A DNA stretch of 64,000 bases from Bradyrhizobium erythrophlei (GTDB taxonomy: Bacteria > Pseudomonadota > Alphaproteobacteria > Rhizobiales > Xanthobacteraceae): the NCBI RefSeq assembly GCF_900142985.1, contig NZ_LT670849.1:310001-374000 (forward strand), read 5' to 3'. Below the pieces are notes generated by a model, which worked only from the letters and a program-made list of their open reading frames with translations, had not been told where the DNA came from and searched no databases. Below are positions 20,815 through 28,790 of the stretch, one piece after another. The translations under genes were made by a program, and so were the position numbers. The first letter of the stretch is position 1, and every line of letters starts with the position of its first letter.

Positions 20815-21288
20815 TCACAGCGTGTTACGCAGGATCGGATAGCGCGCGGTAACCGCCGCGAGATCCAGCACCGCGGCAAAGGCGTCCTCCGCCAGGGGCT
20901 CGGCAAGGCGCTCGTCGCCCGCGACGACACCTTCTTCGGCAAGGACCGGAATCTGCTGCGGCGGCGCGATCGGAACGTCCGCGATCTGCGGCAAAGCGGC
21001 CGGACCGCGTCGAAGCTCATTCCGCGGAATCGCGGTTCGCGCGCGTCCAAGCCAGGATAGATCAATCGGCATATTGTCGCGCGTCGCCTCGCGTGACATG
21101 AGCTCGCGCCAGGTCTCCACCGCGTTTTTGGCTTCGCGAATATTGTCGAGAAACGCCTGTTCGCTGTGAAAGCGGCGCCAGCGCCCGGAATCAAACAATT
21201 CGGTGAGATATTCGAGGCGCTTTTCAGCGAGATTGCACCAGCGCGCGACAATTTCGCGGCCTTTGGCGACGTCCAGTTGAGATGCCAT
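20815..21288 (-). CDS. TIGR03809-like conserved protein
   Basis: A 157-residue protein with no signal. The N-terminal 90 residues (GREIVARWCNLAEKRLEYLTELFDSGRW) form a charged helical domain that I recall as TIGR03809, often next to TIGR03808 in this group; the rest is Ala/Pro-rich. ATG 21288 is preferred to 21342 because the extension is arginine-rich and not protein-like. It converges on the beta-helix gene with 19 bases between stops. Function unknown. Confidence 0.65.
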   Translation of the reverse strand: MASQLDVAKGREIVARWCNLAEKRLEYLTELFDSGRWRRFHSEQAFLDNIREAKNAVETWRELMSREATRDNMPIDLSWLGRARTAIPRNELRRGPAALPQIADVPIAPPQQIPVLAEEGVVAGDERLAEPLAEDAFAAVLDLAAVTARYPILRNTL

Positions 21289-21470
21289 AAATCTGCCCGC
21301 AAGAAGGAAAGGACGCGGACGCAACCGGAACGAATCAGCCAAACGTGACGAATATATTTTGTGGAAAAGTCGGACAAAGTCTAGTGCGGCGATTCTGACG
21401 TTCCTTTCAGTGTCGCCGCGAGCTCTTCAGAGGAACGTCGGAGTCAAAGCCACACTGGAACCATATGCTT

Positions 21471-21548
21471 GCTAGTGTCCCTTTGGTTCTGACATTCGTA
21501 AAAGTGCCCGCCGCGATACAGTACGAATGTCAGAACCGGGACGCTGGC
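21471..21548 (+). repeat. Bulged hairpin, type 2 (copy A; partner degenerate)
   Basis: Perfect 16-bp inner arms lie at 21485-21500 and 21522-21537 (GGTTCTGACATTCGTA and its complement). A TTT bulge at 21482-21484 separates them from an imperfect outer stem whose best-conserved part is GTCCC/GGGAC. The loop starts AAAGTGCCCGC as in the other type 2 copies. Just to the left, 21445-21470 resembles the 3' arm and AT-rich spacer of a type 1 partner, so this looks like a composite whose left half has decayed. Confidence 0.7.
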
Positions 21549-21604
21549 GGCATGCACCTGATACGGCATCCGACGCGGCTGAACCCGTGATCCTGCGGCC
21601 GCCA

Positions 21605-21716
21605 ATAAAAGGAAAAGACCCGCCCGGGGGGACAACCGGGCGGGTCAAGCCATATGGCGCTTGGGGTGGATGGGCGCTCGCGCCAGATATAGCCGTGGGA
21701 GGGATGACCGCTCCCA
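21605..21716 (-). ncRNA. Candidate small RNA between two repeat elements
   Basis: Read leftward, this stretch holds a hairpin TGGGAG/CTCCCA (21716-21711 with 21701-21696), a GGCGC/GCGCC hairpin (73-84 in 216xx) and a strong intrinsic terminator (21646-21617). A CTATAT hexamer at 21726-21721 could be the -10 box; the nearest TTGAAC (21753-21748) is 21 bases from it, longer than usual. No protein-like frame is convincing. Structure and terminator are seen; transcription is inference. Confidence 0.45.
21609..21646 (-). terminator. Intrinsic terminator, leftward
   Basis: GACCCGCCCGG and CCGGGCGGGTC (21617-21627 and 21636-21646) form a perfect 11-bp stem with an eight-base loop. On the minus strand it is followed by TTTTCCTTTT. 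No gene to its right reads into it, so it probably ends a non-coding transcript. Confidence 0.75.
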
Positions 21717-21821
21717 ACGCATATAGGTCGGACCAAGCCGGCGGGACGTTCAAAGCTCGTTAAGAAATTTCCCCCCGGGCCACTTCACGTCCGCGCGAGC
21801 AATATTTCACGGCGTTCGGGC

Positions 21822-21988
21822 CTGCTGGAGTGGATTTGACATTCGCTACCCTGCCGCCCGGAATGCGTAGCGCGAATGTCAAATCCAAAACTCCACTAGA
21901 AACCTATATTTGCCAGTGGTTCTTTGACTCTAACATTTGCAAAAGTGCCAGCCAGGCCGGGATGCAAATGTTAGAATCGGACCACTGG
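21822..21988 (+). repeat. Paired bulged-hairpin element (copies B and C)
   Basis: Hairpin B (type 1): inner arms GGATTTGACATTCGC at 21832-21846 and complement at 21872-21886, AAA bulge at 21887-21889, outer stem TGGAGT/ACTCCA (21826-21831, 21890-21895). AT-rich spacer AAACCTATATTT follows. Hairpin C (type 2): inner arms 21926-21940 and 21964-21978 with one mismatch, TTT bulge at 21923-21925, outer stem CCAGTGGT/ACCACTGG (21913-21920, 21981-21988). It ends 12 bases from the subtilase stop codon. Confidence 0.85.
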
Positions 21989-22000
21989 TTTGGTGCCGCC

Positions 22001-23575
22001 TTAGGGCTTCTCGGCGGCCATGGTGGGTGCCGAGAGGTCTCTGGTTGGCGCCGGCCGCTCCTTCTCCGTCTCGGATATTTCGCCCGCCGCCGGCTTCTCG
22101 GCGGCGGCAATCGGCGCCGATGCGGCAGCAACCGCCGACACCGCAGCAAAGGCATCGGCCTCCCCTGCACCGAACTGGTCATCCGGCCCGGGCGGACCGA
22201 GATCGCGCGCCGTTTTCATCAGCACTGCACGCACCTCGTCCGGCTTCAGCGACGGATTACGCGCCAGCACCAGTGCGGCGAGGCCGCTGACATAGGCCGA
22301 GGAAAACGAGGTGCCCGAGGTGATCTGATATTTGTCATCGGGCGCAGGCAGGAACAGATCGACGCCTGGTGCCGACAGCGCGATGTAGCTGCCCCGGTTC
22401 GAGGCCGCAAATAGCTTGTCCTGGGCATCGGTGGCGCTGACCGCAATCACGCTCGCATCCGCTGCCGGGTAAAGCGGCGGCGATTTGGGGCCGGCGTTGC
22501 CTGCGGCTGCGACCACGACGATGTTCCGCGCCGCCAGCGCCGCAAGACCGCGTGAAATAATGGTGTCTTTCGGGCCGGCGAAGCTCATGTTGACGATCTG
22601 CGCGCCGTGGCCCGCCGCAAGATCCAGACCCTTGAGAATCACAAAGGAGGTGCTTTCCCCGCCCTTGCCGGAGGCGCCAAAGGCGCGGACCGCCAAGATA
22701 TGCGCTGCCGGCGCACTTCCCATCAGCCGAACATGCGAAACGATCGCACCGGCAACGCCGGTGCCGTGCGCGTGCGGGCCTTCCTTGCTGCCAAGCGCAT
22801 CGAATGGCGTGATCGTGACACCGGCAAACTCGGGATGCTTGAGATCGATGCCGGAGTCGATCACTGCGACCGTCACGTTGGCGCCGTCGGCGATAGCGTG
22901 CGCCTCCGGCAATCGCAGTTTCAAACGCGCATATTGCGAGGGGTCGCCGTCGTTCGCGGCGGTTTTCTGATCCTGGAGAACGTAGCGGAAGTTCGGCTGG
23001 ACCGCGCGAACGCTGCTGTCCTGGGCAAATTCGCGGCTCGCGGTTTCTACCGTCTTGTTTCCCGCAATACGGAACAGGCCTATCGTGGCCCCGATCAGTT
23101 CAAAGCTTTGGGATTCGATGCGCCGCAAGCCATGTCGCCGTGCCAGCGCATCGACTTGCGCGCTTGTCAGCGAGCCATCGATTTCAGCGACGATCTCCTT
23201 GGCGATCGTGCGTGAGGCAAGCGAGGCCTCCAGCGCGGTGCCGTGGCCGCCCGCGCTCTTGCTTTTGCGGTTATTTCCGGTTGCCACCTGCCCCGAACAA
23301 TCGCCGTTGTCGCGATCAACAGCGCTGCAAGGAGATCCGACGCGGATGTTACCACGATCCAGTCCGGTAACCGCGCGTCCGGCCAGGTTCGGATTGATAT
23401 AGACATGCGGGCCATGGTCGAAGCTCGGGACCCGCGACGAGATATTGAGATTGGGTGAGCGCATAATGCTCTGCGCCAGAGCCGGCTGACTTCCCCACCC
23501 CGTCGAGAGAAAAGCGGCCAGAAGCGCGGCCATCGCAGGCAGGGTCTTCAGCCGCCACATCTTTCCAACTCGCAT
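22001..23575 (-). CDS. Secreted subtilase (S8) with I9-like prodomain
   Basis: A 524-residue serine protease. Signal peptide residues 1-35 (cleavage near ALAQ); a linker with two cysteines (C83, C93) follows; a prodomain-like segment spans about 127-200 (KEIVAEIDGSLTSAQVDALA ... VRAVQPNFRY, the inhibitor I9 pattern). The catalytic domain has D240 (AVIDSGID), H270 (HAHGTGVAG), N360 (AAAGNAG) and S423 (TSGTSFSSAYVSG), a complete triad. The C-terminal tail is Ala/Pro/Glu-rich. ATG 23575 is used; a GTG one codon earlier is equally possible. It is the last gene of an operon with an ECF sigma factor and its anti-sigma, which suggests it is their regulon member or signal protease. Confidence 0.9.
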   Translation of the reverse strand: MRVGKMWRLKTLPAMAALLAAFLSTGWGSQPALAQSIMRSPNLNISSRVPSFDHGPHVYINPNLAGRAVTGLDRGNIRVGSPCSAVDRDNGDCSGQVATGNNRKSKSAGGHGTALEASLASRTIAKEIVAEIDGSLTSAQVDALARRHGLRRIESQSFELIGATIGLFRIAGNKTVETASREFAQDSSVRAVQPNFRYVLQDQKTAANDGDPSQYARLKLRLPEAHAIADGANVTVAVIDSGIDLKHPEFAGVTITPFDALGSKEGPHAHGTGVAGAIVSHVRLMGSAPAAHILAVRAFGASGKGGESTSFVILKGLDLAAGHGAQIVNMSFAGPKDTIISRGLAALAARNIVVVAAAGNAGPKSPPLYPAADASVIAVSATDAQDKLFAASNRGSYIALSAPGVDLFLPAPDDKYQITSGTSFSSAYVSGLAALVLARNPSLKPDEVRAVLMKTARDLGPPGPDDQFGAGEADAFAAVSAVAAASAPIAAAEKPAAGEISETEKERPAPTRDLSAPTMAAEKP

Positions 23576-23610
23576 CACGGGATTTCCGGCTTATGAGCGA
23601 GCCGATCCGC

Positions 23611-24306
23611 TCATGGCGTCGCCACGGCGAGACTGACGATCCGCTCGTTTTGCAATCGGCTCAGGAGGTTTGCAAACTCGTCTTTCGACATCGACCCATT
23701 GGCAAATTGCAGGCGGAACATGCCGCCTTTGGCGCCATCGACGATCGAAGCCTGATATTTGTCGAGCAGTGCCGTGATGTCGCCGACGCGCGCATCCGGC
23801 GCAAATCGCACCAATGCCCGCGGCGGAGCTGCGGCCGAAAGATCGCGCGTGATCGGCTCGTTCATGCTCAACGAGGCGGTCTGGAAGGTGGCAGGGCGAT
23901 TGTTCATCAGCACCGTGCCGATAAAACCAGCCTGCACCAGCAAGGCAACGGCGGCGAGGCCGGCGGACCAGGCCAGCGTTCGCGGTGAAAGGCTGGCGAA
24001 GAAGCCGGAGATTCGCGTGCCGATGCCGAGCGAAGCCGACGGCTCTCGTGCCGGCTCCGCGTCGATCGCAGCAAACAGCTTCCGCATCGCACCGGACGAC
24101 GGCGCACCCAGGCTCTCGTTCAGATCGATGGTTCCGGCATATTCTTCGCGAATGACCGCGTATTGCCGGGCAAGCTCTGGATCGCGCGCGAGCGCATCGT
24201 CGACCTTGCGGGCATCACGCGCGTTCAGCGTGCCGGCCGCGTGCCACGGCAGCAGCAACTCGATCTCGCTCGGTTCCTGCTCGACGATTTTCTTGCTCGC
24301 AGCCAT
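23611..24306 (-). CDS. Membrane anti-sigma factor with periplasmic I9-like domain
   Basis: A 231-residue protein: N-terminal cytosolic helical domain (IELLLPWHAAGTLNARDARKV, about 15-35, the anti-sigma pattern but without the zinc HxxxCxxC motif), linker, transmembrane helix about 111-133, then a periplasmic domain about 163-230 (RALVRFAPDARVGDITALLD ... LQNERIVSLAV). The last domain follows the beta-alpha-beta-beta-alpha-beta pattern of subtilisin prodomains and resembles the prodomain of the downstream protease. The start overlaps the sigma stop (ATGA); ATG codons at 24309 and 24306 are adjacent. Order, overlap and topology make the anti-sigma call strong; the I9 resemblance was judged by eye. 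Confidence 0.82.
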   Translation of the reverse strand: MAASKKIVEQEPSEIELLLPWHAAGTLNARDARKVDDALARDPELARQYAVIREEYAGTIDLNESLGAPSSGAMRKLFAAIDAEPAREPSASLGIGTRISGFFASLSPRTLAWSAGLAAVALLVQAGFIGTVLMNNRPATFQTASLSMNEPITRDLSAAAPPRALVRFAPDARVGDITALLDKYQASIVDGAKGGMFRLQFANGSMSKDEFANLLSRLQNERIVSLAVATP

Positions 24307-24875
24307 CATGGCCAGCCTCGCTCTATACCGGCTGCCTTCAGCAGCTCGGCCAGTTTCTTGCGTGCGTAGAACAGGCGGGTCTTCACTGTATTCTCCGGAA
24401 TCCCAATGATACCAGCCACTTCTTCAACAGACTTCTCGTGATAGTAGACGAGATCGACGATCTCCCGATGTTCGGCCGAAAGCTGGCCTAAACATCTACG
24501 CAACGCGTCACCAGTATCCTTCTTCTGTACGCTCACCTCGGGATCGTCGGACGTGTCCTCGATCGCGTTGGCGGCCTCGTCGTCCAGTTCCGCGTCCTTC
24601 CTGCGGCGAAGCGCCGACAGGGCCTTGAAGCGCGTAATCGCGAGCAGCCAAGTCGAAACAGCGGACCGGCCCTCAAATTTCCCGGCCTGACGCCACACAT
24701 CAAGGAAAACCTCGCTGATGAGGTCTTCGGCCACCTGCTCGTTCCGAACAAGCCGAAGCCCGAATCGAAACACCCTGACGTGATGGCGCCCATAGAGCAC
24801 TTGCATGGCGAGCCGATCGCCCTGGGCAATCCGAGCGATCAGATTGTCGTCGGAAGCCGCCTGTGTCGCACTCAA
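24306..24875 (-). CDS. ECF RNA polymerase sigma factor
   Basis: A 189-residue extracytoplasmic-function sigma factor. Sigma-2 region: VLYGRHHVRVFRFGLRLVRN with AEDLISEVFLDVWRQ (about 27-63); sigma-4 region: LSAEHREIVDLVYYHEKSV then IPENTVKTRLFYARKKL (about 130-180), a helix-turn-helix for the -35 element. It belongs to the RpoE-like group with a membrane anti-sigma encoded next. The upstream region 24876-25254 should hold its promoter. The signal is unknown; the operon also encodes a secreted subtilase. Confidence 0.93.
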   Translation of the reverse strand: MSATQAASDDNLIARIAQGDRLAMQVLYGRHHVRVFRFGLRLVRNEQVAEDLISEVFLDVWRQAGKFEGRSAVSTWLLAITRFKALSALRRRKDAELDDEAANAIEDTSDDPEVSVQKKDTGDALRRCLGQLSAEHREIVDLVYYHEKSVEEVAGIIGIPENTVKTRLFYARKKLAELLKAAGIERGWP

Positions 24876-25254
24876 TGGCCGTCTCGCAAGGTTGGTCGGA
24901 TCAGACTGGGGCGTGGTTCGATCAGGAAGGCAAGATTCCGCAAATTATAGCAATAACCCGCAGGAGACTGTGATCTTCCGCACAGAAAAGCCTTTTCCTT
25001 CACGTGACGCGTCGACGCTTGACGGTATTTAAATACACCTTGCTCCCGTCGCAAATCGGCCCTCAGTGGCATTGGAACACGTTGGCAGGCGACGATGTCA
25101 CCGACATGCCGCCCATGCACATAAACGGCCGATTTCCTCATCCAAACAAGGGGAAAACGACACTTCAAGATCCGAGATTTCGCCGCGAAAGATACCAAAC
25201 CTAAAGGCTTTGCCACGTAAGTTCCCGTCGATTGCTTTCACCAATGGCGAATTT
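24876..25254. other. Divergent promoter region, no gene seen
   Basis: A 379-base region separates the leftward sigma operon from the rightward diguanylate cyclase gene. A minus-strand TATAAT-like hexamer (24949-24944) could be a -10 element for the sigma operon but has no clear -35 partner at 17 bases. Short frames here have no ribosome site. No terminator or repeat was seen. Confidence 0.45.
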
Positions 25255-26403
25255 ATGGGCATCGCGGCGTCGCCTTTTTTGAGTCCGACGGCAGACAGGC
25301 TGAACGGCGTCGGCCCCAAACTGACGACCGAGGTGCTTGCGCGTCGGGCGCGGCAGCGCCGGCAGATCCAGAGCGCGATTGGCATCAGCTACGTCGTCGA
25401 TGCCATCATCCTGCTGATCTATGCCCACGCCGGCACGACGTCACCGACGATCGGCCCCGCGTTTGCCATCTGCGGTCTCGTCTCGGTGACCGGATATATC
25501 CTGCTGTCAGAATCAGGCGTCACCGAGCGCTTTAGCGATCATTATTTCGTCGTTCCGCAATCGATCATCAGCGTGATCATCATGCTGGCGTTCACCTACA
25601 TCGCACCGCAAGTCGGCGTGATGTTTCTGTGCACGTTGTTCGTCGTGTTCGCCTTCAGCTCGTTGCGTTCGACCCCGTGGCAAACCGCGGTCGTCTGGAC
25701 GGCCACGGCGTCGGGACTTGCCGGACTGTTCCTGCTCACGGACAAACCGATTTCGCTGCCCCACGAAACCTATCTGGAACGCTTCGCCACGATGACGGTG
25801 TTCATCCTGACCGTCGGGCGCTGCATGTTCATTGGCATATTCTCCAGCGCAATGCGTGACTCGCTCTACCGAAGCGGCCTTGCGCTGAAGGAAGCCAACC
25901 GGCGCATCGAAGAGCTCGCCGAACTCGACGACCTCACCGGCTCGCTCAATCGCCGCTGCATCATGCGCTTTCTGGACGACGAGATCGCGCGCGCCCACCG
26001 GACCAGCGTCCCCTGCGCCATCGCGCTGATCGATCTCGACTGGTTCAAACGCATTAACGACACCTACGGCCACCCGACCGGCGACGAAGTGCTCAAGACG
26101 TTTGCGATCACGGTGTTCGCCAATATCCGCAGCGTCGACCGGTTCGGCCGCTATGGCGGCGAAGAATTCCTGCTGGTGCTGCCCGAAACGCCTGTCGACG
26201 TTGCGGTGCGGCTGCTCGACCGGCTGTGCTCGATCATCGCCGGTCTCGACTGGAGCGCATTCTCGCCGGGCATGCGCGTCACGGTTTCCGCCGGCGTCGC
26301 GACGCTGAAAGCAGGCGAAACGGCAGACACCTTTCTCGCTCGCGCCGACGGTGCGCTCTACAAAGCCAAAGCACAGGGGCGCAACCGCACCTCCAGCGCC
26401 TGA
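25255..26403 (+). CDS. Membrane diguanylate cyclase (GGDEF)
   Basis: A 382-residue protein with about six membrane helices (45-200) followed by a GGDEF domain that makes cyclic di-GMP. DDLTGSLNRR begins the domain, DLDWFKRINDTYGHPTGDEVL carries the metal site, and the active site is RYGGEEF. RSVD five residues before GGEEF is an intact RxxD inhibitory site, so product inhibition is expected. There is no EAL domain. ATG 25255 removes an upstream frame of unlikely composition. The DUF2336 gene follows 63 bases later. Confidence 0.92.
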   Translation: MGIAASPFLSPTADRLNGVGPKLTTEVLARRARQRRQIQSAIGISYVVDAIILLIYAHAGTTSPTIGPAFAICGLVSVTGYILLSESGVTERFSDHYFVVPQSIISVIIMLAFTYIAPQVGVMFLCTLFVVFAFSSLRSTPWQTAVVWTATASGLAGLFLLTDKPISLPHETYLERFATMTVFILTVGRCMFIGIFSSAMRDSLYRSGLALKEANRRIEELAELDDLTGSLNRRCIMRFLDDEIARAHRTSVPCAIALIDLDWFKRINDTYGHPTGDEVLKTFAITVFANIRSVDRFGRYGGEEFLLVLPETPVDVAVRLLDRLCSIIAGLDWSAFSPGMRVTVSAGVATLKAGETADTFLARADGALYKAKAQGRNRTSSA

Positions 26404-26466: not shown

Positions 26467-27579
26467 ATGAGTTCGAAACTGCTTCCCACTTCCGACGGCC
26501 TGCTCGACGAATTGCAGGCGACACTGGCACACGGAACCGTTGCCCGCCGGGTCGAAACGTTGCGAAAGGTGACCGATCTCTTCATCAGCGGCGTGGTCGA
26601 GTTTTCCGACGACCAGATCGCGCTGTTTGACGACGTGTTCCAATGCCTGATGCATCACATCGAGACCTCCGCGAGGGCGCTGTTGTCGAATCGACTTGCG
26701 CCAGTCGATCGCGCCCCGCCGCTGACCGTCCGCGCGCTGGCGTTCGACGATCTGATCGAGGTTGCGGCCCCCGTTTTATCGCAGTCGGAGCGGCTCGACG
26801 ACCAGACCTTGATCGAAACCGCACGCAACAAGAGCCAGGCGCACTTGATGGCGATTTCGACTCGCAAGACGCTCAGCGGCGCCGTCACCGACGTGCTGGT
26901 TCAGCGCGGCAATGACGAAGTGGTTCAAAGCGTTGTCGGCAATCCCGGCGCCGAATTCTCGGAACGCGGTTTTGCCCGACTGGTCAACCGTGCCGAAGGC
27001 AATGACAGCCTCGCTACCTGCATCGGCCTGCGTCCGAACATTCCACGGCACGTCTACCTGAAACTGCTGGCCAAGGCGTCGGCGACAGTGCGGACGAAGC
27101 TGGAAGCCGCCAATCAGCCGATCGCGCAGGAAGTGTCTAGCGCCGTGCGGGAAGCAACGCGACTGGCACGTTCTGCACCGACGGCCATGACCCAGGAAAC
27201 CGCGATCGCGCACGCGCTGGTCAAGTCGCTATACGAAGACGGACGGCTCGACGAATACCAGGTCGCGGCTTTCGCGGAAGCCGGCAAATTCGACGAAGCC
27301 AATGCCGCGGTCGCAGCCCTTGCCAACGTGTCGATCACGATCGCCGAGAACATGATGGTGGAAACCCGCGCCGAGGGCGTCATGATTCTCGCCAAGATTT
27401 CCGGCATGTCCTGGTCGACCGTCAGATCGATCATCAGGATGCGCGACGCGCTCGCCGGCAAGGAGCCGTCCGATCTCGAAACCTGCAAGGCCACCTACGA
27501 GCGGCTTCGTCCCTCGACCGCGCAGCAGGTGCTTCGCTTCCATCGCATGCAGCAGACGGCGACGCCGCCGGCGGCGTGA
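26467..27579 (+). CDS. DUF2336 domain protein
   Basis: A 370-residue, mostly helical protein of the DUF2336 family, common in alphaproteobacteria. Repeated short helical units (VRALAFDDLIEVAAPVLSQ, DEVVQSVVGNPGAEFSERGF) suggest a HEAT-like solenoid; SGMSWSTVRSIIRMRDAL near the C-terminus is typical of the family. No signal peptide or enzyme motif is visible. Position after the cyclase suggests co-expression. Stop codons converge with osrA across the palindrome GGTTCTAGAACC (27581-27592). Confidence 0.8.
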   Translation: MSSKLLPTSDGLLDELQATLAHGTVARRVETLRKVTDLFISGVVEFSDDQIALFDDVFQCLMHHIETSARALLSNRLAPVDRAPPLTVRALAFDDLIEVAAPVLSQSERLDDQTLIETARNKSQAHLMAISTRKTLSGAVTDVLVQRGNDEVVQSVVGNPGAEFSERGFARLVNRAEGNDSLATCIGLRPNIPRHVYLKLLAKASATVRTKLEAANQPIAQEVSSAVREATRLARSAPTAMTQETAIAHALVKSLYEDGRLDEYQVAAFAEAGKFDEANAAVAALANVSITIAENMMVETRAEGVMILAKISGMSWSTVRSIIRMRDALAGKEPSDLETCKATYERLRPSTAQQVLRFHRMQQTATPPAA

Positions 27580-27584
27580 CGGTT

Positions 27585-28223
27585 CTAGAACCTGAGCACT
27601 TTCGCACCGATAAGTGCGCCGACCGCTGTCACGACAGCAGTCGCGATCGGATACCAGGTCGCTACGAACAGCGGCGAGTCGTCGGTGCAGTGCGAGGCGT
27701 AGAGGGTCGCCGCCAGTCCCGCCGAGATCAGCCCCGCCATCGCGCCGGCCAGCGCGGGGCGTGCCGGCGCGCCGTGGCGCAGCCCGACGAGCGCACCCGC
27801 CAGAAGCGGCAATGACAATAGCGGGATCGAGGTCATGCAAACCCGCGAATTACTGCCGACCAGTCGCGTCATCATCGGCAGCCGCTGCGGCATCATCATT
27901 TCGCTGGCTATGCCGGCGGCGATGATTCCGGCCGGAATCAGCAGCAGCCATCCCCAACCCTTAACGGAGGCCTCGGGTCGCGAAAGATGCAGGCCAACCA
28001 CAATGGCGGAGATCGCCAGCGCCAGCGTGATCACGAATTTCAGATCGAAGAACGGGTTGCGCATCGCCGTCATGACGTCCGGCCGAACACCGAGCGCCAT
28101 CATGAACATGATGAGCGAAACCGGCGCTGCAGCCAGCAACGCCAGCGCCAGTACGGATCCGACCGGCCGCATGCGATAGGGATTGTCGGCGGCGAGCGTT
28201 CGAATGAGCTGTTCGGTTTCCAT
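27585..28223 (-). CDS. osrA: NrsF/DUF1109 anti-sigma factor, OsrA-like
   Basis: A 212-residue protein with six hydrophobic helices, the fold of the NrsF/DUF1109 membrane anti-sigma family. Two cysteines, C129 (SNSRVCMTS) and C179 (YASHCTDDS), lie where those of OsrA of Bradyrhizobium japonicum are reported to be needed for sensing oxidants. That agreement, and position two bases after the ecfF-like gene, support the name. The protein would hold EcfF at the membrane until oxidised. The role in this strain is inferred from the known pair. Confidence 0.88.
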   Translation of the reverse strand: METEQLIRTLAADNPYRMRPVGSVLALALLAAAPVSLIMFMMALGVRPDVMTAMRNPFFDLKFVITLALAISAIVVGLHLSRPEASVKGWGWLLLIPAGIIAAGIASEMMMPQRLPMMTRLVGSNSRVCMTSIPLLSLPLLAGALVGLRHGAPARPALAGAMAGLISAGLAATLYASHCTDDSPLFVATWYPIATAVVTAVGALIGAKVLRF

Positions 28224-28225
28224 TT

Positions 28226-28771
28226 TCAGTGCTCCCGCAGCTTGGCGGTGAGACCAGAGAGCGCGCGATGTAACGCGACCCGCACGGCTCCTTCGCTCAT
28301 CGAGAACTTCGCCGCAGTATCCTTGATCGAAGCGCTTTCCACTGCAATCGACTGCAAGACGTCGCGCTGGCGCGGCGGCAACGTCTGCAACAGGCCTGCG
28401 ATTTCACCGGCCGACGCCGTCTCGGCCGACGGCTGGTCTGGAATGGTCTCGGCAAAGTCGTCGATATTGACGAAGACCCTCCGGCCGCGCCGCCTGAGCG
28501 CGTCAATCAGCTTGTTGCGGGCGATGGCGAACAGCCACGGCGCGAACGGTGCGTTCACGTCCCAGGTATGCCGCTTCAGATGCACCGCTAGCAAAATATC
28601 CTGCACGACGTCCTCGGATTGATCGACCGGCTGACCGGCCCGCGCGAGCCCTCGGCGCGCCCCGGCCCTCAATACCGGCGTGACCGCCTTGAGCAGACGA
28701 TGATACGCGGCGCTGTCGCCTGAAATGGCCAGCCGCATCAGGCCAGTCCACTCGTCTTTACCTTCGCGCAC
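28226..28771 (-). CDS. ecfF: ECF sigma factor, EcfF/SigF-like
   Basis: A 181-residue ECF sigma factor. Region 2 has QSEDVVQDILLAVHLKRHTW and the polymerase-contacting WLFAIARNKLIDALRRR; region 4 has LPPRQRDVLQSIAVESASI and SEGAVRVALHRAL. GTG 28771 is favoured because GGGAG precedes it; GTG four codons upstream (28783) is possible but would almost abut the predicted transcription start. It pairs with the cysteine-bearing OsrA-like protein, the reactive-oxygen-responsive EcfF-OsrA system of B. japonicum (SigF-NrsF in Caulobacter). Targets often concern methionine-sulfoxide repair, but none is adjacent here. Confidence 0.88.
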   Translation of the reverse strand: MREGKDEWTGLMRLAISGDSAAYHRLLKAVTPVLRAGARRGLARAGQPVDQSEDVVQDILLAVHLKRHTWDVNAPFAPWLFAIARNKLIDALRRRGRRVFVNIDDFAETIPDQPSAETASAGEIAGLLQTLPPRQRDVLQSIAVESASIKDTAAKFSMSEGAVRVALHRALSGLTAKLREH

Positions 28772-28790
28772 GCGCGCTCCCACACGTCAT

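Follow-up and report, generated by a model that had tools for sequence, protein, structure and literature searches.

Introduction

In the Sinorhizobium meliloti ECF26 system (ECF, extracytoplasmic function) RpoE6-EcfR6-SMa0142, a serine protease gene adjoins the sigma factor gene and is a target of RpoE6. According to that report, the divergent protease-sigma arrangement is widely conserved in ECF26 (PMC6180224). The identified site-1 proteases of anti-sigma factors named in a 2020 review are DegS, DegP, SipS/SipT and Prc, and its excerpted text calls the site-1 proteases of several anti-sigma factors still unknown (PMC7593790). In eukaryotes, S1P (MBTPS1), which acts on SREBP2, is gated by an inhibitory prodomain that SPRING displaces (PMC11231238). 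In the CASP system (Csx29-Csx30-CASP-sigma), a TPR-CHAT protease cuts the inhibitor of an ECF-like sigma factor encoded in the same locus, as the partial text of the report describes (PMC10028731). Here we analyze a stretch of 64,000 nucleotides of Bradyrhizobium erythrophlei DNA (contig NZ_LT670849.1, positions 310,001 to 374,000; "the window"), in which the genes of an ECF sigma factor, an anti-sigma factor and a secreted subtilase (S8) form one leftward cluster.

A first-pass annotation of this DNA knew of no described system with this layout and proposed that the anti-sigma factor carries a mimic of a protease prodomain, through which the protease gates sigma release. Adjacency of an S8 and an ECF sigma gene is already known from Sinorhizobium RpoE6 (PMC6180224). 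With a probability of roughly 0.42, we suggest that the S8 protein is a dedicated site-1 protease, which docks on the prodomain-like domain of the anti-sigma factor and cuts at a motif in its juxtamembrane linker.

Results

The C-terminal domain of the anti-sigma factor resembles an S8 prodomain

A common beta-alpha-beta-beta-alpha-beta pattern had been read from anti-sigma residues 163-230 and S8 residues 127-200, and AlphaFold2 agreed with both pattern and limits. In the anti-sigma model, strands (E) and helices (H) were predicted at E164-169, H175-184, E187-194, E197-202, H209-220 and E225-231; those of the S8 prodomain were placed at E124-133, H139-148, E151-159, E164-171, H177-185 and E190-201. 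Block means of the predicted local distance difference test (pLDDT) were 57-79 for the anti-sigma domain and 81-96 for the S8 prodomain, and the anti-sigma model as a whole was poor (mean 62; predicted template modeling score, pTM, 0.28). The modeled C-terminal domain has the fold of an S8 prodomain. Alignment of its profile with that of the partner S8 prodomain using hhalign gave a score of 25.2, compared with 14.3 for the best of 200 column shuffles. This match is collinear across 70 columns and indicates homology, which is distant in view of an HH probability of just 29%. Pfam model PF22148 (fervidolysin prodomain) did not match the window anti-sigma factor at E<=1. It matched six of 12 relatives at E<=1 and two of 11 at E<=0.1, and was precomputed in five of 120 listed relatives. 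Fold, profile-profile comparison and the PF22148 matches of some relatives support the presence of an S8-prodomain-like domain, as had been proposed. A sequence search of the PDB with the anti-sigma profile returned two rows, both at chance level.

The last residues of a propeptide enter the active site of the protease. In a VIA alignment, the last anti-sigma residue, 232, pairs with residue 72 of the BPN' prosegment, which is 77 residues long; the window domain stops at its last strand and has no counterpart of the final propeptide residues. Several relatives have longer tails, and in the sequence list many of them show an AEP-type prodomain ending. As the tail is missing in the window and variable in relatives, inhibition in the manner of a bound product is not conserved, and we term the domain prodomain-like rather than a propeptide. 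For the window protein, simple inhibition of this kind is not obvious.

The domain is linked to S8 genes across distant families

Fetched loci and genomes are denoted by working labels (L and G numbers, respectively). Altogether 105 Bradyrhizobium-type loci were examined, 25 from a genome search and 80 from genome contigs (species may overlap), and an S8 gene lay beside the anti-sigma gene in 103 of them. The exceptions were L023, which lacks S8, and L088, which has only a C-terminal S8 remnant. In L088 (3435-5080), the sigma frame also seems broken and the anti-sigma frame is intact; the cluster may be decaying in this strain.

A first set of 40 regions (L150-L189) extended to at most about 6 kb on either side, contig ends permitting, and 39 of the regions came from beyond the genus. 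The phylum search had given 35 hits from other genera that extend into the C-terminal domain, and 31 of these were included; eight more regions came from two earlier searches, and the S8-less G003 was added from within the genus. The four omitted phylum-search hits belonged to genera already sampled. S8 genes were found in 31 of the 40 loci, compared with one (L202, opposite strand) of 20 controls (Fisher P 5e-8), which were taken from the 28 domain-less anti-sigma hits of the same search and fetched alike. The first set includes L165, which gave no domain match in the scan, and L181-L188, which also supplied the profiles. For the phylum-search loci only, the ratio was 23/31 versus 1/20 (P 1.3e-6). 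A held-out set consisted of the loci of the best-scoring hits in additional genomes of the orders to which G723, G698 and G633 belong. Of its 47 domain-bearing loci, 43 had an S8 gene no more than 1.5 kb away, as did one of 35 domain-less loci (L268; P 1.8e-17). Since control L266 recurs from the first set, the distinct controls number 54, two of which have S8.

The arrangement of the genes varied. S8 lies upstream in L152, in L153 and on a Methylocapsa plasmid, and in L163 and L164 the anti-sigma gene is convergent with the sigma gene and placed between sigma and S8. A linkage that survives gene rearrangement argues for function. One relative is plasmid-borne (Methylocapsa pRX1); none was found in the viral contigs searched.

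Some loci lack S8 and carry a caspase-like peptidase

The first-pass annotation had asked for a survey of co-occurrence and held that occurrence of the domain without a nearby S8 gene would refute its proposal. The domain does travel with S8 across distant families, and a minority of loci has it without S8: L169, L171, L172, L176-L180 and L189 in the first set. A C14 caspase-like peptidase is encoded near seven of these nine, recognized by Pfam PF00656 in L169, L171, L176, L177, L178 and L180 and by motif only in L179. No peptidase was found within the fetched stretch of L172 and L189, and the L172 genome gave no S8 match at all. In the held-out L282 (wide fetch L305), C14 was likewise recognized by motif only; L302, L303 and L304 showed no peptidase in a profile and motif scan. 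These loci led us to reject an exclusive pairing with S8: the module is peptidase-coupled, not S8-exclusive. A motif scan detected no C14 in the controls, but three of the seven first-set loci with C14 escaped such a scan as well, and therefore no statistical claim is made for C14.

In L171 a distance of 2.5 kb separates the domain-bearing gene from the C14 gene, which is on the opposite strand; in L177 the distance is about 2 kb. The frames between the two genes look transporter-like by eye in both loci. In L176, L178 and L179, domain-bearing membrane proteins are encoded beside C14, and the sigma profile found no match; judged by eye, the preceding frame in L176 and L178 may be a divergent sigma factor.

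A conserved juxtamembrane motif resembles, across loci but not in the window pair, a segment of S8

Between membrane helix and prodomain-like domain, T144, A145 and S146 were identical in all 81 Bradyrhizobium-type sequences compared (window and 80 loci), and residue 142 was F in 77 and Y in four. Mean entropy was 0.13 for residues 143-147, 0.89 for 137-142 and 0.81 for 148-159. The FQTAS-like motif is not the sole conserved spot of the linker, as a second patch comprises P152 (80/81), T154 (80/81) and R155 (81/81). Distant relatives often show an aromatic-x-T/V/A-A/L-S/G pattern. The segment of the partner S8 directly past the prodomain often resembles the linker, for example in L277 (YRTLAA/YRTLAR) and L248 (YRTLSN/YQTLSN). 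An unanchored test of this likeness in 26 loci gave a score about 2 standard deviations (sd) over shuffled and mismatched pairs. With anchors picked by eye in 23 of the 26 loci (L029, L117 and L118 were dropped), matched pairs scored 3.87 versus 1.00 (sd 0.82; P 0.0004).

The likeness recurred in 23 representatives of the 43 held-out S8-bearing loci, in which the homogeneous L215-L241 block was cut to six. Using anchors picked by profiles built from the pieces of the hand-anchored test, the score was 3.74 versus 1.16 (sd 0.78; P 0.001) and was attained by none of 500 shuffled-linker sets; the unanchored test gave P 0.046. Some profile-picked anchors look wrong (e.g. L217, L250 and L280) yet were kept in, and shared ancestry among related loci is only partly controlled in these tests. 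The conserved FQTAS-like juxtamembrane motif is new here; its likeness to the S8 segment after the prodomain holds across loci, not in the window pair and not clearly in the lineage of the window. An arginine switch in C14-partnered linkers is not claimed, as many S8-partnered linkers also contain arginine.

Layout of the Bradyrhizobium cluster

The leftward order of the three genes, the ATGA overlap (24306-24309), a gap of 35 bases and a secreted S8 protease with an intact triad had all been noted correctly (Table 1). The gap is counted from the S8 ATG at 23575 and shrinks to 32 bases from an upstream GTG. The sigma protein matches Pfam Sigma70_r2 and r4_2 and scores 348 bits with NF009168 (cut-off 236). 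The overlap with sigma, one hydrophobic helix (about residues 109-136; hydropathy peak 117-135) and an NF052375 match under the cut-off (34.6 bits over residues 20-167; cut-off 100) suggest a class I ECF anti-sigma factor. The zinc motif of the ZAS subtype is HxxxCxxC. Lacking any cysteine, the anti-sigma factor does not have it, in line with the first reading; relatives match zf-HC2 in seven of 12 cases in one set and in 11 of 11 in another.

The S8 gene is the sole PF00082 match (E<=0.001) in the genome (G000; 7.5 Mb, single contig). The triad of Table 1 follows the GTG numbering (D240/H270/S423 from the ATG) and does not vary among 40 aligned sequences, those of the window and of 39 loci. 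Cys 84 and Cys 94, between signal peptide and prodomain, are likewise invariant in 40 aligned sequences and possibly form a disulfide. Scanning 21500-25400 for sigma-70 promoters gave no hit; conserved blocks are present upstream of the sigma gene, no promoter being identified among them.

Table 1. Features of the sigma, anti-sigma and S8 cluster (window coordinates).
Feature	Position	Strand	Basis
ECF sigma factor, PRK12515/NF009168-type, 189 aa, TTG start	24306..24875	-	Pfam, NF009168
Single-pass anti-sigma factor, 232 aa, no Cys	23611..24309	-	NF052375, ATGA overlap, hydropathy
Juxtamembrane motif FQTASLS, anti-sigma residues 142-148, candidate cleavage/docking motif	23866..23886	-	Conservation; putative function
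Prodomain-like (I9/fervidolysin-like) predicted periplasmic domain, anti-sigma residues ~160-232	23614..23832	-	AlphaFold2, VIA-align, hhalign
Secreted subtilase (S8), 525 aa	22001..23578	-	PF00082 148.5 bits; signal peptide judged by eye
S8 prodomain, residues ~124-201	22976..23209	-	AlphaFold2
S8 catalytic domain, residues 232-472, triad D241/H271/S424	22163..22885	-	Pfam, alignment

A GGDEF diguanylate cyclase gene (25066-26403, +) is divergent from the sigma gene and followed by a gene for a DUF2336 protein (26467-27579, +); a frame that by eye resembles these neighbors is also found upstream of sigma in L023. A second ECF sigma gene (28226-28783) is located some 2.7 kb upstream of the cluster and is accompanied by a gene for a negative regulator of NrsF type (PF06532, 194 bits; span of the pair 27585-28783, -). 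Two inverted repeats with 16-base arms (21831-21978) directly follow the S8 gene. Further downstream, a 175-aa protein (20815-21342, -) is encoded that has no Pfam match at E<=0.001; similar proteins were seen by eye downstream of anti-sigma in the S8-less L023 and in L088.

Discussion

In the mechanism that we favor, the N-terminus of the anti-sigma factor would hold sigma in the cytoplasm and its single helix would span the membrane. Outside the membrane, a short linker with the FQTAS-like motif would be followed by the domain related to S8 prodomains. Mature S8 would dock on this domain through its prodomain-binding face and cut the linker beside the membrane, which would amount to site-1 cleavage. 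A general site-2 protease would then release sigma, and the freed sigma factor would transcribe its own cluster, perhaps including the protease. Binding, cutting, the site-2 step, autoregulation, the direction of control and the signal are what we infer, whereas the gene order, the distant homology of the domain, the wide conservation of the pairing and the conserved linker motif are shown. Of the two versions of protease-gated release in the first-pass annotation, control by cutting is indirectly supported by the motif next to the membrane; no support was found for control by protease maturation.

Some observations limit the case for this mechanism. The window pair itself has a likeness score of -6, so that the argument from linker likeness is not directly applicable to this genome. 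In the hand-anchored test, P was 0.065 within the window-like group (11 loci) and 0.0012 for the other 12, and the lack of significance in the former lowers our confidence. Finally, the anti-sigma factor persists after loss of S8, which speaks for redundancy or for the main rival explanation. In the latter, the protease would be an output of sigma only, and the tethered domain would bind mature S8 and measure or restrain it without being cut, acting as inhibitor, anchor or folding aid. We consider this unlikely, although prodomain homology and co-occurrence with S8 agree with it and, in S. meliloti, RpoE6 targets the serine protease gene next to its own gene (PMC6180224). It leaves the conserved linker motif and its likeness to the S8 segment unexplained, and the window domain lacks a propeptide-like tail, though the tails of several relatives are longer.

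Less probable still is a ferredoxin-like (ACT-like) ligand sensor that shares the fold by chance, with S8 or C14 as regulon members and a general, DegS-like site-1 protease. The structural matches include ACT and Lrp domains, the partner peptidase alternates between S8 and C14, and some loci show none. The PF22148 matches, a profile score far over that of the column shuffles, the AEP-type endings and the rarity of S8 in the distinct controls are at odds with such a sensor. That the genes stay together merely through shared regulation or drift, the prodomain likeness being an old duplication with no present function, is very improbable given the pairing in many families with rearranged orders and the conservation of motif and domain core, even if two Bradyrhizobium-type loci lost S8 or retain a remnant and kept the anti-sigma gene. 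A role in defense was dropped, as the PADLOC matches of S8 are confined to IetS and a generic subtilase model.

Returning to dedicated site-1 cleavage by S8, the mechanism might extend to a peptidase-addressed class of anti-sigma factors in Proteobacteria, in which a prodomain-like dock and a copy of the maturation-type site of the protease itself occur in reverse order and a dedicated secreted subtilase, or a C14 peptidase in some lineages, acts as site-1 protease; this generalization is possible, if rather doubtful. If true, one domain would mark a protease-substrate pair and predict site-1 protease and cleavage motif for many proteobacteria, a protease prodomain would have been reused as a substrate address, and bacterial caspase-like peptidases could be linked to sigma control. 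Such a class would parallel S1P, itself a subtilase, in bacteria, except that the substrate would carry the relocated prodomain.

Among the literature matches listed, none reports a prodomain-like anti-sigma factor, which does not establish its absence in print. The S. meliloti RpoE6 system shares an ECF sigma and a membrane anti-sigma factor beside a serine protease gene, and its anti-sigma C-terminal domain is likened to RsiW in the available portion of the report (PMC6180224). On pSymA (L210, a record without annotation), the S8 frame is divergent from the sigma frame taken to be RpoE6, which is about 32% identical over 148 residues to the window sigma factor, and the anti-sigma factor gave no match to the domain at E<=0.05. 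In DegS/RseA and signal peptidase/RsiV, an outside site-1 protease also cuts an ECF anti-sigma factor before site 2; the site-1 list of the review has no subtilases, and the words subtilase and subtilisin are absent from it (PMC7593790). CASP, comparable solely to the C14-partnered loci, differs in being an RNA-triggered CRISPR system, and the extract names no prodomain-like module (PMC10028731). With S1P, the system proposed here would share a prodomain-gated protease whose initial cleavage helps to release a transcription factor from the membrane (PMC11231238). The prodomain is on the protease there, whereas here a prodomain-like module is on the supposed substrate; the parallel is an analogy, not homology of systems.
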